Shown here one piece after another: positions 26,853-60,510 of a stretch of 64,000 nucleotides of DNA; positions within the stretch are counted from its first letter, which is position 1, and every line of letters starts with the position of its first letter. The stretch lies in NCBI RefSeq assembly GCF_013393385.1, contig NZ_AP023239.1:2914001-2978000 (forward strand). Direction: 5' to 3'. The translations under genes were made by a program, and so were the position numbers. Source of the stretch: Paenibacillus sp. URB8-2 (GTDB lineage Bacteria > Bacillota > Bacilli > Paenibacillales > Paenibacillaceae). A model generated the notes under the pieces. It ran no database searches. It worked only from the letters and a program-made list of their open reading frames with translations, and had not been told where the DNA came from.

Positions 26853-26957
26853 TCCCCTATATTAGGAAAAATCAAGATATTCAGTTGTTCCGTCTCCGCC
26901 ACTTTTATTATAATGCGAATAAACGTTCCCGTGGTATGAAGCAAATCATAGGATTCA

Positions 26958-26966
26958 TGATATAAT
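26958..26966 (+). promoter_or_regulatory. Extended -10 promoter of the TerB-ATPase-helicase operon
   Basis: TGATATAAT is an extended -10 (TGN-TATAAT). It overlaps the most upstream in-frame ATG of the TerB gene, implying that transcription starts near 26973 and that translation starts further down, at 27004 or 27022. No good -35 is visible, which is usual for extended -10 promoters. Confidence 0.55.
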
Positions 26967-27021
26967 GGTAGGAACTAAATGGGCGGTTCTTGGGCTGCCG
27001 GCAATGGAGCGGGATGGATCG

Positions 27022-28875
27022 ATGAGCTATGACGACAAGCCGCATTTCTCAGAGTTGATCTGGGAGGGCGATGAAAAAAATATGGCCGTGCCTCCGCGCG
27101 AAGCGGCTCGGGAGGAGGAAAAACGAGCCACCGAGGCGGACAAGAGTCAGAGGTTGAAGGAAAGCCGGAGTATATCCGAAAGACCCGAACAGCTGAAGCT
27201 GTGGGATTTGGAGCTCCCTGGTCGCAGGGAAGATAAGCGCGGCGGACTCCAAAGCGCGGCGGTTCCCCGAAGAGACGAGATTGTAAAGGATAAAGAAACT
27301 GCTTCCTCCCCCCGGCCGGCCACGACGGAAAGCCAGTTCGTAGAGCATGCAAGGGAGTTGGCCGATTATACCGAGACGTCGGCGGAATTCGTCAAATTCA
27401 AGAGCTATTGGCCGACCTACGGGCACATGACCGGTCCGCAGACGAAATGGTATTTCTATTGGCGAAATGAAGTCCGGAACGGTCGTTATCCCGAAACCGA
27501 TTTGTCTTATATTTTTCTGCATATATATGAGCTGATCAATGGTGTCGGCTGGGATACGCCGCAGAACGGCTATGAACAGCTATCCGGCTTATGGGAAGCT
27601 TACCGCGACACCTTCAAACGCCTCGATCACTATCTCGGCGGGTGGATTGCGGATTTCTCCTTTATCCATAAGCTGAATATTCCGCTGCGGGAAATTGTCG
27701 TCCGGGCTAAAGGTCTGGGCGGAGATTTGGCGGAGCTGGAGCTGAAACGCTGCCTTACGACCGCGCCGGAGCAGCTGACATTGACCGCGCTGTCGCTGAT
27801 GTCGGACTACGATATTACCAAGTCAAAGTTTTATGCGGGTCCCGGAAATGAGGTGCTGGAACGTTTCGTTCCGCAGGTAGTTGGTCTGGTGAACGCTTAT
27901 GTGACGCGCAAGCACGGTGCTTCGCTGCTTGAAATGTTTCCCCCCGGACCGCCGGCGATGAGGGAACGCTACTTGTTCCGCAGCGCCGTCTATGATATTT
28001 CAAAGTACGGCTATTCCGTCCTTGTCCCTGTCGTCCGTATCAGCAAATCTCCTCCGCTGAGGAGCCTGATCACCCGGCTGTTCCGGCTTACGGAAAATAA
28101 GCTGCGAGCGATGATGGACTACCGGGGGCGCCTGAAAGGTATTAGTATAGATAAAGACATTGAGGAGCTTGTCAGCAAATTCCTTGAACGAGAATTCCGC
28201 AAGGCGGAAAGGGAAGAGAAAGGACCGGATATTGTTATAGACAAGGACAAGCTGGAGCGGCTGCGCGGCGACTCGGAAGTTGTCCGCCATCTGCTGACGG
28301 TGGATGAACCGGAAGTGGAGAAGCCCGTCAGTGATTGGCCTGCGGCGGATTTGCCGACTGCGGACGAATCTAGCGCGTCTGTGCTTGCGCAGGGCAGCGA
28401 AGGAATTGGGCAGGAGCGGAACATTGCCGTAATATCTGACGGAACTGCGGGATCTGCAGTTTCTGCAGGATATGAAGGCGTAGTACCGGATACGCAGAAG
28501 CCGGTAGAGGAACTTCCGACTGCAGCAGACGGAGCGGCCAATGGAACAGCGGGCGCGATAATCAGGGGCAGCGAGGCCATATACGAAGCGCAGACAGCAC
28601 CGAATGAACCGCAGGTGCCATCAATAGTGCCCGAGAACGAGTGGGAAGCAATGGCCGGCGCGCTCAGTCCCTTGCAGCGTCAGGCTGTATTGGCCCTTTC
28701 GGGGCCGGATGGTCCTGCCGAGCTGCGCAGACTTGCTGCTGCCCAAGCGGCGCTGCCCGATCTGCTGATTGACGAAATCAACGAAATCGCAATGGATGTG
28801 CTCGGCGACCTGCTGATCGACGGCGAGGAATTCTCGCCTGAGCATGCGTCCTTGCTGCAATACTTGAAGAGGTGA
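27022..28875 (+). CDS. TerB_N/TerB_C domain protein, first gene of a putative defence operon
   Basis: A 617-residue protein taken from the ATG at 27022, just after GGGATGG; two upstream in-frame ATGs (26965, 27004) are unlikely because of the extended -10 at 26958-26966. A charged, low-complexity N-terminal stretch (1-100) precedes a TerB_N-like domain (about 110-300) containing FKSYWPTYGHMTGPQTKWYF, WRNEVRNGRYPETDLSYIFL and YELINGVGW. A long disordered Ala/Glu/Pro linker (about 430-540) leads to a TerB_C-like C-terminus (LSPLQRQAVLALSG, LIDEINEIAMDVLGDLLID). Family knowledge: TerB_N/TerB_C proteins occur with ATPases and helicases in predicted DNA-processing or phage-defence islands. The next genes are exactly such an ATPase and helicase. 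Confidence 0.8.
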   Translation: MSYDDKPHFSELIWEGDEKNMAVPPREAAREEEKRATEADKSQRLKESRSISERPEQLKLWDLELPGRREDKRGGLQSAAVPRRDEIVKDKETASSPRPATTESQFVEHARELADYTETSAEFVKFKSYWPTYGHMTGPQTKWYFYWRNEVRNGRYPETDLSYIFLHIYELINGVGWDTPQNGYEQLSGLWEAYRDTFKRLDHYLGGWIADFSFIHKLNIPLREIVVRAKGLGGDLAELELKRCLTTAPEQLTLTALSLMSDYDITKSKFYAGPGNEVLERFVPQVVGLVNAYVTRKHGASLLEMFPPGPPAMRERYLFRSAVYDISKYGYSVLVPVVRISKSPPLRSLITRLFRLTENKLRAMMDYRGRLKGISIDKDIEELVSKFLEREFRKAEREEKGPDIVIDKDKLERLRGDSEVVRHLLTVDEPEVEKPVSDWPAADLPTADESSASVLAQGSEGIGQERNIAVISDGTAGSAVSAGYEGVVPDTQKPVEELPTAADGAANGTAGAIIRGSEAIYEAQTAPNEPQVPSIVPENEWEAMAGALSPLQRQAVLALSGPDGPAELRRLAAAQAALPDLLIDEINEIAMDVLGDLLIDGEEFSPEHASLLQYLKR

Positions 28876-28883
28876 CATAAGGC

Positions 28884-30206
28884 ATGAATGAACTGAAAAT
28901 ACCGAAACGAATGACGACGGCGCTCGTCAACTCGCTGACGGCGGGCGTTGTCCCGCGCATTGGACTGGAGCATATCGCCGTCGGACGCCGCGCGGAGATC
29001 GAATCAATCTTGCGCGATCTTGACAACATTGCCGAAGGTGGCGCGGCCTTTAAGCTGATTACGGGCAAATACGGCAGCGGCAAAAGCTTTTTGCTCCAGA
29101 TGATCCGCAATTACGCAATGGACCGCGGGTTCGCGGTCGCCGACGCCGATCTGTCGCCCGAGCGAAGACTGGTCGGCACCAAAGGACAGGGCTTGGCCAC
29201 CTACAAGGAGCTGATGAGCCACTTGTCCACCCGCACCCGTCCGGACGGAGGAGCGCTGGAAGTCATCCTTCAGAAATGGATATCCTCGCTGCAGCAGAAG
29301 ATTATGCAGGAACGGGGTATGGATCCCGGACATCCTGCTTTTGCCGGAGAGGTCGAGAAGGAGATTTTTGCCGTCGCCTCCGATATGCGGAGTCTCGTGC
29401 ATGGCTTTGACTTCGCTAAAGTGCTTGCGGCTTATTGGAACGGCCACAAGCTTGGGGACGAGGATTTGAAGCAGGAGGCGCTGCGCTGGCTGCGCGGCGA
29501 ATTCGCGACACGCACGGAATCCCGGAAGGCGCTGGGTGTCGGGGTCATTATCGATGACGACAACTGGTACGATTATATGAAGCTGTGGGCGGAATTTTCC
29601 GCGGCCATCGGCTACAAGGGGCTGCTGCTGTTCATCGATGAAGGCGTCAATTTGTATAAAATTACAAACAGCGTCTCCAGACAGAGCAACTATGAAAAGC
29701 TGCTGACCATGTTCAACGACACGATGCAGGGCAAGGCGGAGCATCTCGGGATTTTTCTTGGCGGAACACCGCAGTTTGTCGAGGATCACCGGCGGGGACT
29801 GTTCAGCTATGAGGCGCTGCGGTCCAGGCTAGTGGCCGGACGGTACGGCTTCGCCGCTCCGAATAATTTCTCGGGGCCGATTATTCCGCTCGACATGCTG
29901 TCTTCCGAGGAGATTCTCGTACTGCTGCAAAGACTTCGGGATATTCATTCGCTGCATTACGGCTATCCGTCCGCGTTGACCGACGACCAGCTTGTTCATT
30001 TTATGGAGGAAGCCTCTTCCAGGCTGGGCGCAGACGAACTTCTGACGCCCCGCGAGCTGGTGCGCGATTTCATGGACCTGCTGCATACGCTGCACGGCAG
30101 TCCGGAGACTTCATTCGAAAGCCTGGTCGGAGAACGGACAGCAGCCGGCAAATCCGAAAGCGGCAAGGATACGATGGACGATCTATTGGCGGAGTTTGAG
30201 CTATGA
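28884..30206 (+). CDS. BrxD-like P-loop ATPase (DUF2791 type)
   Basis: A 440-residue ATPase, 8 bases after the TerB gene. Walker A is GKYGSGKS (residues 61-68), Walker B LLLFIDEG (about 246-253), and a sensor-like segment is FLGGTPQFVEDHRRGLFSYE. The start RMTTALVNSLTAGVVPRIGL and the RLVAGRYG and PLDMLSSEEILVLLQRLRDI segments match the BREX BrxC/BrxD-type ATP-binding family. In type 2 BREX, BrxD occurs with the BrxHI helicase. Here the same pair occurs without any BrxA/B/C, PglX or PglZ gene in the window. The gene overlaps the helicase gene by four bases (ATGA), so they are translationally coupled. Confidence 0.85.
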   Translation: MNELKIPKRMTTALVNSLTAGVVPRIGLEHIAVGRRAEIESILRDLDNIAEGGAAFKLITGKYGSGKSFLLQMIRNYAMDRGFAVADADLSPERRLVGTKGQGLATYKELMSHLSTRTRPDGGALEVILQKWISSLQQKIMQERGMDPGHPAFAGEVEKEIFAVASDMRSLVHGFDFAKVLAAYWNGHKLGDEDLKQEALRWLRGEFATRTESRKALGVGVIIDDDNWYDYMKLWAEFSAAIGYKGLLLFIDEGVNLYKITNSVSRQSNYEKLLTMFNDTMQGKAEHLGIFLGGTPQFVEDHRRGLFSYEALRSRLVAGRYGFAAPNNFSGPIIPLDMLSSEEILVLLQRLRDIHSLHYGYPSALTDDQLVHFMEEASSRLGADELLTPRELVRDFMDLLHTLHGSPETSFESLVGERTAAGKSESGKDTMDDLLAEFEL

Positions 30207-32398
30207 GCGATAACCCGTTTTACCGGCTTGCGCCGTTTATCAAGGAGTTTATTTACAGAAACCGCTGGGAAACACTGCGCGAAGCGCAGGTGGACGCCTG
30301 CCGGGTGCTGCTGGAGTCGCCGGATCATCTGCTGATCGCGTCGGGAACCGCGTCGGGCAAGACGGAGGCGGCTTTTTTTCCCGCGCTGACCGAGCTGTAT
30401 GAGAATCCCTCTTCCTCTGTCGGAATTCTGTATATTGCTCCGCTCAAAGCGCTGATCAACGACCAGTTCGCCAGGTTGAACGACCTGCTGGTCGAAGGCG
30501 GCATTCCCGTCTGGCATTGGCACGGCGATGTGCCGCAGGCCGAGAAGACGAAGCTGATGAAGAATCCGTCCGGAGTGCTCCAGATTACCCCCGAGTCGCT
30601 TGAAGGCCTGCTGATGAACCGTCCGAACGCCATTCCGGCGCTGTTCGGCGATCTGCGCTTTGTCATCATTGACGAAGTGCATGCCTTTATGGGCGCCGAC
30701 CGGGGCATCCAGGTGCTCAGCCTGCTCACAAGGATATCCCGAATGGCGGGCTGTTCTCCGCGCCGGATCGGGCTGTCCGCCACACTCAGCGACTATGATA
30801 CCGCAACCCGCTGGCTTGCCGCGGGGACGCGGGAGCAGGTACGGATATCCGCGCCCCAGGGCGGGCGGAAGCTTCGCTTGAGCGTCGAGCATTTTTCTTT
30901 TCCCGATGCCCGGGACGAGAAGCAGTCCGAACAGCTGGAGCTTGCCCGCAAAGCCTATTACGACTACATTTACGACCATACCCGGCTTAAAAAAGCGCTG
31001 GTCTTCACCAACAGCCGCACCGACGCGGAAACGGCGATCCTTGAAATGAGGCGCATTGCGGCGAGGCGCCAGGAGCCGGACGTGTTCCACGTCCATCACG
31101 GCAGCATTTCCGCGATGCTGCGGGAGGAGGCGGAGGCCGCGCTCCGCGAAGGCCCCGGTGCGGCGGTTGCCGCAGCGACGCTCACGCTGGAGCTGGGCAT
31201 CGATCTGGGCGAGCTGGAGCGGGTCATGCAGCTCGGGGCGCCTTACAGCTGCTCCAGCTTCGTGCAGCGGCTGGGCCGCTCGGGACGCCGGGGCGACGCC
31301 GCGGCGGAGATGATGTTCGTCACGCCGGAGGAAGAGGACGAGGAAGCGCAGCTGCCGGCGCGCATGCCCTGGACCCTGCTCCGGGCGATCGCCGTTATTG
31401 AGCTTTATGTGCGGGAGAAATGGGTCGAGCCGCTTACCGTTCGTAAGCTGCCGATGGGCCTGCTTTATCACCAGACGATGAGCATACTCAAGAGCATGGG
31501 TGAGGCTGAGCCCGAAGAGCTGCGGGAAGCCGTTCTCTCGCTCCCTTCTTTTCGGGATTTCAGCGAAGAGGATTATGACGCATTCATGGCTTACCAGCTG
31601 GGAATGGGCCAGATAGAGCAAATGGATGAAGGCAGCCTCCTGATCGGTCTTGCCGGAGAGAAGATCGTCAATAACTTTCGCTTTCTGGCCGTCTTCAAGG
31701 ACGACGAGGAGCATGTCGTATATAACGGCACGGAGGAAATCGGGTCGATTACGACCGTGCCGCCCCCGGGCTACTGCTTCACGCTAGCAGGCAAGCTGTG
31801 GAAGGTGGAAGAGGTGGACAACCGCCACAAGGCGGTGTATGTGAAATCGTCGCGCGGCAAAGTCGATACATTGTGGCTTGGCGCAGGCGGCGATGTGCAT
31901 ACCCGGATCATGACCAAAATCCGGGACATACTCGGAGATACGACTCTTTACCCGTATCTCGCGCCTAGAGCGGCAGCCCGGCTTGAGCGGGCTCGGCGGC
32001 TGGCGCGGGAGAGCGGATTGCTTCTGCGCTCCGTACTTCCGGCCGGCGGCGATTCGCTGTTCATTCTGCCCTGGGCGGGCAGCCGGACATTCCGCACACT
32101 GGAGCGGCTGTTGAAGCACAAGCTGACGCGTCCGCTGGCCTTGCGCTCGGTTGTGCCGATGGAGCCTTATTACATGGTCGTCGCCGGAAAGGCGGACGCC
32201 GATTGGCTGGAGGCTTCCATCCTGGAAGCAGGCTCCGCAGGAGTAGACCCGCTGGAATTGCTGGCTCCGGGCGAAGCTCCCTACTTAGGGAAATACGACG
32301 AGTGGATTCCCCAAGACCTGCTGCGTAAAGCATTTGCGGTGGACGGTTTGGACGTCCCGGGCTTCCATGAGATGGTGGAGCGTTGGCGGAGGGACTAG
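30203..32398 (+). CDS. BrxHI/Lhr-like DEAD/DEAH superfamily 2 helicase
   Basis: A 731-residue SF2 helicase. Motif I is GTASGKT (residues 48-54), Ia IAPLKALINDQ, II DEVH (157-160), III SAT (192-194), IV ALVFTNSRTDAE, V LELGIDLGELERV, and VI QRLGRSGRRGD (about 357-367). The C-terminal region resembles BrxHI/Lhr-type helicases and contains a beta-rich segment before the end. It would unwind or translocate on DNA using ATP. Last gene of the TerB-ATPase-helicase operon; by eye this gene is GC-richer than its flanks. About 400 bases of repeat-bearing intergenic DNA follow. Confidence 0.9.
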   Translation: MSDNPFYRLAPFIKEFIYRNRWETLREAQVDACRVLLESPDHLLIASGTASGKTEAAFFPALTELYENPSSSVGILYIAPLKALINDQFARLNDLLVEGGIPVWHWHGDVPQAEKTKLMKNPSGVLQITPESLEGLLMNRPNAIPALFGDLRFVIIDEVHAFMGADRGIQVLSLLTRISRMAGCSPRRIGLSATLSDYDTATRWLAAGTREQVRISAPQGGRKLRLSVEHFSFPDARDEKQSEQLELARKAYYDYIYDHTRLKKALVFTNSRTDAETAILEMRRIAARRQEPDVFHVHHGSISAMLREEAEAALREGPGAAVAAATLTLELGIDLGELERVMQLGAPYSCSSFVQRLGRSGRRGDAAAEMMFVTPEEEDEEAQLPARMPWTLLRAIAVIELYVREKWVEPLTVRKLPMGLLYHQTMSILKSMGEAEPEELREAVLSLPSFRDFSEEDYDAFMAYQLGMGQIEQMDEGSLLIGLAGEKIVNNFRFLAVFKDDEEHVVYNGTEEIGSITTVPPPGYCFTLAGKLWKVEEVDNRHKAVYVKSSRGKVDTLWLGAGGDVHTRIMTKIRDILGDTTLYPYLAPRAAARLERARRLARESGLLLRSVLPAGGDSLFILPWAGSRTFRTLERLLKHKLTRPLALRSVVPMEPYYMVVAGKADADWLEASILEAGSAGVDPLELLAPGEAPYLGKYDEWIPQDLLRKAFAVDGLDVPGFHEMVERWRRD

Positions 32399-59799: not shown

Positions 59800-60510
59800 A
59801 TGGACTTGGACGAACAACGAGCTTGGAGTGAAAACCATAGGGAATTAAATGAAATCATTTCAAAACCTCAAGAATATTCTCAAGCGATTCATTTATTTCT
59901 TTCACTACATGCTTGGTTACACTCTTCAGAGGTTGGAAATGAGGGTAAGCAAACACTAAAAGATGTAGTTGTTGAAAATTTAACTGAAAAAAGCTTGAGA
60001 AAGTATCCAGTAACTATCCCTAATACGAAAAATTCCATTGCATGGCACCTATGGCACATTGCACGAATTGAGGACATGACCATGAGTATTTTGGTCGCTG
60101 ATGATCAACAAGTTCTTTGTGCTGGGAATTGGTTTGAAAAAATGAATACTAGATTTTTACATTCTGGTAATGAGATGAGCGAAGAGGACATTGTTGATCT
60201 AAGTTCAAGTATAAATTTTGAATCATTATTGGCATATAGAACAGCCGTCGGAAAGCACACACGACAAATAATATCGATGTTGACTCCCGGACAATTAAAA
60301 GAAAAGGTTGACCCAAAGAGAATCAAACGATTGTTTGATGAAAATGCCGTTACGCAAAATGCGAGTTGGTTAGCCGGTTATTGGAGCAAAAAAAGCATAG
60401 CTGGGCTAATGCTGATGCCTGCAACAAGACATATTTTTTTACACTTGAAAAAATGTATTCATATAAAGGATAAACTTCATAAACCAATGAAGAATCCACT
60501 CCAGAGATAA
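59800..60510 (+). CDS. DinB-superfamily metal-binding protein
   Basis: A 236-residue helical protein starting at ATG 59800 after AAGGGGCGGG. The DinB-like four-helix bundle is recognised by NSIAWHLWHIARIEDMTMSI with its first His, and by PATRHIFLHLKKC near the end for the other His. Family members bind a metal and some act as thiol transferases. AT-rich, like the GyrI-like gene before it. A possible hairpin AAGAATCCA/TGGATTCTT (60490-60523) overlaps its stop codon. Confidence 0.75.
   Translation: MDLDEQRAWSENHRELNEIISKPQEYSQAIHLFLSLHAWLHSSEVGNEGKQTLKDVVVENLTEKSLRKYPVTIPNTKNSIAWHLWHIARIEDMTMSILVADDQQVLCAGNWFEKMNTRFLHSGNEMSEEDIVDLSSSINFESLLAYRTAVGKHTRQIISMLTPGQLKEKVDPKRIKRLFDENAVTQNASWLAGYWSKKSIAGLMLMPATRHIFLHLKKCIHIKDKLHKPMKNPLQR

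Follow-up and report, generated by a model that had tools for sequence, protein, structure and literature searches.

We analyzed a window of 64,000 nucleotides from Paenibacillus sp. URB8-2 (contig NZ_AP023239.1, positions 2,914,001 to 2,978,000), which carries a compact operon of three genes, sngA, sngB and sngC, identified by profile comparison as a member of the known family Shango (SngA, SngB, SngC). The trio is a fixed, inherited part of a whole Paenibacillus genus, unlike the patchy Shango found elsewhere. Judged from sequence, the trio itself is already known, and what is unusual is a genus-wide core form with LexA-like boxes upstream of sngA and sliding-clamp-type peptides in SngA. We give about half of our confidence to the reading that this form is a domesticated, lineage-fixed Shango that would now act chiefly at replication forks of the host that have stalled or been damaged.

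Results

The operon and its family

The operon was read from three co-directional open reading frames (ORFs) on the + strand, at 26965-28875, 28884-30206 and 30203-32398, the first of which we shorten below:

27022..28875, + strand: sngA, TerB_N/TerB_C protein of 617 residues (PADLOC and Pfam; start codon favoured by homology)
28884..30206, + strand: sngB, AAA+ ATPase of 440 residues, predicted fold Orc1/Cdc6-like
30203..32398, + strand: sngC, SF2 helicase, Lhr/BrxHI-like, 731 residues (PADLOC, DEAD and Helicase_C)

The gap between sngA and sngB is 8 bases, and sngB and sngC overlap by 4 bases, ATGA, as an earlier sequence-only reading of the window had described. The domain calls of that reading also hold, with Pfam cut-offs passed by TerB_N (120.6 bits), TerB_C (28.8 bits), BrxC_BrxD (535.8 bits), DEAD and Helicase_C. 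The PADLOC profiles score 352.6 bits for SngA, 665.7 for SngB and 795.5 for SngC, with matches that span most of each protein. Shango is defined by adjoining TerB-domain, ATPase and SF2 helicase genes, which are present here in the same order. The Shango systems of P. aeruginosa PA14 and E. coli likewise consist of genes for a TerB-like protein, an ATPase and a helicase, a likeness that rests on the PADLOC profiles, since the PA14 and E. coli proteins were neither compared nor placed in our trees. Passages of one published account locate the PA14 system in a defence hotspot and report that Shango from a P. aeruginosa hotspot lowers plaquing modestly, 10- to 100-fold, with many of the phages tested, though not with all (PMC10250203). 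The anti-phage kinship that the sequence-only reading had proposed is therefore upheld, through a family that reduces plaquing of several P. aeruginosa phages.

BREX shares with the trio the Pfam BrxC_BrxD ATPase and the BrxHI-type helicase profile, and passages of another account place SngC, BrxHI, DruE and DpdJ in a potentially distinct SF2 clade (PMC12278908). However, PADLOC BrxD reaches only 159.9 bits on SngB and BrxHI only 410.5 bits on SngC, far below the Shango profiles, and the NCBIfam BrxD equivalog match of 164.2 bits falls short of its cut-off of 350. PglZ (PF08665) has no match in the organism's own genome, and PF10923 (the BrxC/BrxD-type ATPase) has a single one, which leaves none for a separate BrxC. 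The earlier statement that PglZ and BrxC are missing thus extends from the window to the genome; for the BREX DNA methylase, also said to be missing, no search was made. Hachiman (HamAB), a further helicase-based defence, responds to DNA damage without phage and pairs a Ski2-like HamB with a nuclease partner, according to passages of the same account (PMC12278908); the window operon has no nuclease gene.

A core form in the genus

The SngB profile matches all of 100 genus genomes, that of URB8-2 included. In 93 of them the protein lies in one full-length frame, in two (G022, G089) it lies at a contig end, and in five (G029, G044, G053, G064 and G079) it is in pieces, G044 being only 72% complete. 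The gene is split in the other four, and in G584 and G614, in assemblies at least 89% complete, and can therefore be lost, sequencing error being a possible cause of some splits. Two related genera have SngB in 57/75 and 32/40 genomes. In a sample of the family, 92 of 197 genomes match, 22 of which belong to the genus and two of which (G113, G243) are weak (<60 bits); in a sample of the class, 47 of 299 match, 27 of them from the same family.

Full-length SngB scores fall into groups, with the lineage form at about 650-702 bits, a patchy form at 500-578 bits and a few below 200; two genomes of another family score 640-647 bits (one is locus L121), and G172 carries both the lineage and the patchy form. 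Relative to the window, 20 lineage loci of the genus show identities of 71-95% for SngB, 72-95% for SngC and 34-66% for SngA, while 15 patchy loci show 40-47% for SngB and 31-36% for SngC; SngA was not found by blastp at two of these 15 (L108, L118). Among 138 loci with distinct SngA, sngB and sngC come after sngA in 136, and the two misses (L199, L304) stop at contig ends, so that the trio is conserved as a unit, as the sequence-only reading had supposed. Named carriers, among the best 80 of 93 loci, are Paenibacillus zanthoxyli, P. sinensis, P. lautus, P. macerans, Fontibacillus phaseoli and several Saccharibacillus. Four patchy loci (L112-L115) show a different arrangement, in which other ORFs and a distance of 2.1-3.6 kb separate sngB from the best helicase match.

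The lineage trio is vertically inherited. In midpoint-rooted trees the 36 lineage sequences are monophyletic, with support of 0.86 for SngB and 0.999 for SngC; the nearest outsiders in the SngB tree are a plasmid copy from Paenibacillus peoriae and L121. Distances correlate with those of LexA across 27 of 30 genomes (Mantel r 0.58 for SngB and 0.72 for SngC), a level reached by none of 2000 permutations. A relative of the window's MFS gene lies directly upstream of the trio in 12 of 20 genus loci. SngB and SngC are under strong purifying selection: over nine pairs, the ratio of nonsynonymous to synonymous substitution (dN/dS) is 0.034-0.088 for sngB and 0.045-0.079 for sngC, within the range of 0.03-0.20 spanned by eight genes nearby, each measured over at most nine pairs. 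The ratio for sngA, the fastest evolving of the three, is 0.09-0.31; distant pairs are near saturation at silent sites.

The lineage trio also lies outside defence islands at the loci scanned. We compared neighbouring ORFs with PADLOC at E 1e-15, 136 from 13 lineage loci and 140 from 13 patchy loci. The lineage neighbours match 4 models, namely mad3 (three ORFs), two WYL models and PDC-M69B, versus 95 for the patchy neighbours, with BrxA, BrxB, GajB, AriA and Old among the matches listed; several models of one gene are counted separately, and 4 and 95 are therefore not numbers of systems. Five ORFs at patchy loci match mad3 as well. In the window, one of 48 other ORFs matches mad3 and the remaining PADLOC models have no match. 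The neighbourhood survey proposed in the sequence-only reading thus confirmed the linkage of the three genes and showed no association with defence islands at lineage loci; constitutive presence in Paenibacillus without such a link, half of what that reading had named as a refutation of its own anti-phage proposal, is the pattern found for the trio's ATPase in this genus, as far as the scanned loci go.

LexA-like boxes upstream of sngA

The upstream region contains three elements read from the sequence:

26909..26914, + strand: TATAAT, -10 of a putative distal promoter P1
26916..26929, + strand: LexA-like box CGAATAAACGTTCC at the expected P1 start site (18-base matrix match 26914-26931, 8.4 bits)
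26958..26966, + strand: extended -10 TGATATAAT of a putative proximal promoter P2

TTGTTC at 26885-26890 is a possible -35 of P1, judged against the consensus. The extended -10 had been noted in the sequence-only reading and was found; the ATG at 26965, however, falls inside it, and relatives align from the ATG at 27022. For these two reasons the true sngA start is most likely 27022 rather than 26965.

We built a LexA matrix solely from 30 lexA promoters of the genus, with 5-6 boxes each. Of 178 lineage loci tried, 176 had sngA; they gave 138 distinct upstream regions, which were grouped by single linkage into 28 clusters of alignable sequence, each counted as having a box by its median. The loci are not independent events. 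The controls were 1549 start regions of other ORFs at the same loci. Boxes of at least 8 bits occur in 63 of the 138 upstream regions and 12 of the 28 clusters versus 91 of the 1549 controls (p 4e-8 by cluster), and boxes of at least 10 bits in 7 of 28 clusters (p 1e-5). No column-permuted palindromic matrix out of 300 reached the observed count at 8 bits, and none out of 300 did so at 10 bits. The boxes differ between subclades, and several lie directly behind a TATAAT-like hexamer. From these sequences, LexA appears to control the operon in many species.

All 10 members of the window's upstream cluster have the window box at 8.4 bits or more. When these are aligned with L198, which was added because a box there had turned up in the matrix scan, the box and the P2 TATAAT are kept in 11 of 11 sequences and the P1 TATAAT in 10 of 11, the window included; sequence further upstream is unalignable. 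The strongest LexA-matrix site of the window lies elsewhere, at 60322-60339 (16.0 bits). Outside the lineage, the LexA-like site of L121 scores 9.1 bits, and the patchy Shango at L105 has a 19-bit site near its sngA start, behind a TTAGAAT hexamer; SOS control may therefore reach beyond the core lineage.

A sliding-clamp-type peptide in SngA

SngA is predicted to be folded at about residues 100-430 and 538-617, with a predicted local distance difference test score (pLDDT) below 50 at 1-3, 7-24, 43-91 and 434-536. One of the disordered segments carries a short peptide:

27190..27204, + strand: QLKLW, SngA residues 57-61, sliding-clamp-type peptide in the predicted disordered N-tail

The pattern Q[LIM]x[LIM][FW][DE] occurs in 65 of 138 distinct lineage SngA, whereas the 1683 other ORFs at these loci contain it once. 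A slightly wider pattern is present in 60 of 138 N-tails, versus an average of 2.5 loci and a maximum of 7 for composition-shuffled N-tails; the matches at L130 and L141 look unrelated. Across 67 sequences aligned around the peptide, Q, L, L and W and the D and E that follow reach an identity of 0.88-1.00, with the values for Q, L, L and W, and not those for D and E, raised partly by selection through the pattern; the surrounding columns are mostly at 0.15-0.58, two reaching 0.66-0.72. In other subclades the linker carries QMDIF, QMDMF, QLDIF, or peptides of the QAVMDF/QAEMDF type, and this second form is found in 20 of 115 linkers (shuffled mean 0.67, maximum 4). Altogether 118 of 138 loci have a box of 8 bits or one peptide form. 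The pentapeptide was found in none of 14 SngA scanned from outside the lineage.

Passages of a published account give the clamp motif as QL[S/D]LF, more generally QxxLF (PMC12309361), and the organism's own two DinB-type polymerases carry QLDLFD and QLTLFD. The W at the last place of QLKLW departs from that motif, and we therefore advance clamp binding as a hypothesis.

Some SngA are much longer, having about 300 additional residues at the N-terminus or an overall length of 1228-1554 residues (L035 10053-12545; L045 6060-8675; L296 and L298-L304 of Saccharibacillus). In four of the long SngA, those of L035 and L299 among them, TerB_N and TerB_C are the only domains that Pfam recognises.

Motifs and relatives of SngB and SngC

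The ATPase and helicase motifs of SngB and SngC are intact by sequence:

29064..29087, + strand: Walker A GKYGSGKS of SngB (G61, G64, G66, K67 and S68 invariant in 33 rows)
29622..29645, + strand: Walker B region LLLFIDEG of SngB (D252 and E253 invariant in 33 rows)
30344..30364, + strand: helicase motif I (GTASGKT) of SngC
30665..30688, + strand: helicase motif II (DEVH) of SngC
30770..30784, + strand: helicase motif III (SAT) of SngC
31265..31288, + strand: helicase motif VI (QRLGRSGR) of SngC

Comparison of the predicted SngB fold placed Cdc6/Orc1 first and TnsC lower; identity to the Orc1/Cdc6 initiators and TnsC is only 15-17%, and a shared fold shows no function. SngC matches TIGR04121, a profile of Lhr-type DNA repair helicases, over residues 13-670, with the cut-offs missed both for this profile and for the Lhr winged-helix profile WH_Lhr (22.7 bits, cut-off 27). 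Its best PDB relatives by sequence, 5v9x and 7lhl, are both named ATP-dependent DNA helicase, and we take them to be Lhr proteins. The C-terminus of SngB, LAEFEL (window 30186-30203), follows a variable linker, is conserved in the lineage alignment rows and looks like a docking peptide.

Plasmid relatives and other neighbours

SngB relatives are present on 692 plasmid records, 542 of them predicted conjugative; most of the records are from Klebsiella (449) and Salmonella (144), and only two of the 692, both Paenibacillus, exceed 60% identity. No SngB match was found in phage records. Two of five plasmid loci viewed outside Paenibacillus have a further pair of genes behind the trio. On a Sulfitobacter faviae plasmid (L317 1-9826) the trio is followed directly by genes annotated as a PD-(D/E)XK nuclease and a UvrD-type helicase, which we read from the annotation as an AddAB-like pair, possibly making an extended, five-gene Shango. 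On a Natrinema zhouii plasmid (L318 3479-13305) an archaeal trio is followed by metallophosphoesterase and SMC ATPase genes, in our reading of the annotation a Mre11-Rad50-like pair. Both pairs would fit work at DNA ends. Such genes were not seen beside the trio at the Klebsiella, Salmonella and Aeromonas plasmid loci. Matches among the 48 ORFs of the window also include two M29 peptidases, a protein with DUF6603 and one related to AlkZ.

Discussion

Shango elsewhere lies in a defence hotspot and on plasmids, whereas the form described here is genus-wide and vertically inherited, and the loci scanned lie away from defence islands; many of its species carry LexA-like boxes and clamp-type peptides. 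Beyond these computed features, we infer that LexA regulates the operon, that SngA binds the clamp, that the three proteins form a complex in which SngB loads SngC, and that the complex has a host role. ATPases of the Orc1/Cdc6 and TnsC kind form rings or coats on duplex DNA, to which they bring a partner. On that ground we propose that SngB, as an Orc1/Cdc6-like AAA+ protein, would likewise encircle or coat the duplex and position or load SngC, and that SngC would act as an Lhr-like SF2 translocase. LexA control would let the operon be made when forks stall or DNA breaks. SngA, with its TerB_N and TerB_C domains, would be the scaffold, and the clamp-type peptide in its disordered segments may tether the complex to replicating DNA. 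The complex could then remodel or clear the fork; with no nuclease gene in the operon in the window, remodelling fits better than destruction. More tentative is a specific history, in which an ancestor of the Paenibacillus lineage captured a mobile anti-phage system that became an SOS-inducible, clamp-tethered fork machine, with an Orc1/Cdc6-like ATPase loading an Lhr-type helicase and two or more forms of the clamp peptide arising at separate positions of SngA.

Several observations weigh against this host role. Five of the 100 genus genomes have SngB only in pieces, and the related genera give no match in 18 of 75 and 8 of 40 genomes, so that SngB is dispensable; in Paenibacillus cellulositrophicus the trio lies on a replicon of 897 kb that is called a plasmid; and Foldseek ranks HslU first for SngB, with an ORC chain sixth. 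The pentapeptide comes largely from a single part of the genus, usually with W rather than F as its last residue, and 20 of the 138 loci lack box and peptide alike. At a threshold of 12 bits the box enrichment by cluster is not significant (2 of 28 clusters, p 0.071), and 1 of 300 permuted matrices reaches the observed count. On its own the window box is weak, as the window holds 10 sites of at least 8 bits, and 7 sites other than this box score 10 or more. Two of the 13 patchy loci, L105 (19 bits) and L107 (9.1 bits), likewise have boxes of at least 8 bits, which therefore do not mark the host form alone.

An appreciable possibility, though one we would not call probable, is that an anti-phage Shango became fixed in the lineage and is still purely innate immunity, with LexA raising defence during phage-caused DNA damage. 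The broken copies of sngB and the boxes at the sngA of L105 and L107 suit it, as do the rapid evolution of SngA and the identity of family and gene order with a Shango that, in passages of PMC10250203, blocks phage. Presence in every genus genome and the lack of defence neighbours at scanned loci argue against it, together with the constraint on SngB and SngC, which is like that on neighbouring genes, and the confinement of the pentapeptide, among the SngA scanned, to the lineage.

It is unlikely that the trio is a host housekeeping complex for another nucleic-acid task, such as RNA or spore DNA processing, that keeps Shango as ancestry only, its boxes belonging to another regulator or to chance. 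Here the 75 of 138 upstream regions without a box of 8 bits, the box of L198 without a P1 TATAAT, both of which also tell against the fork reading, and the RNA helicases among the weaker SngC profile matches would find a place; however, the matrix was trained on lexA promoters alone, and the enrichment at 8 and 10 bits is lost once its columns are permuted. Least credible by far is the inference of the sequence-only reading that the trio is a minimal, stand-alone BREX with a TerB module replacing the remainder: the BrxC_BrxD and BrxHI-type profiles do match, but the higher Shango scores, the missed BrxD equivalog cut-off and the genome's lack of a PglZ match place the trio in a described family of its own.

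Counts of defence systems made with profiles would register SngB in each of the 100 genus genomes, where it is a constant rather than an acquired defence. The published passages on Shango drawn on here give no mechanism, and the LexA and sliding-clamp signals suggest two hypotheses for its action, recognition of replicating DNA or of damaged DNA. Finally, the genus-wide form offers a case for asking how a defence system may become host maintenance, or the reverse.

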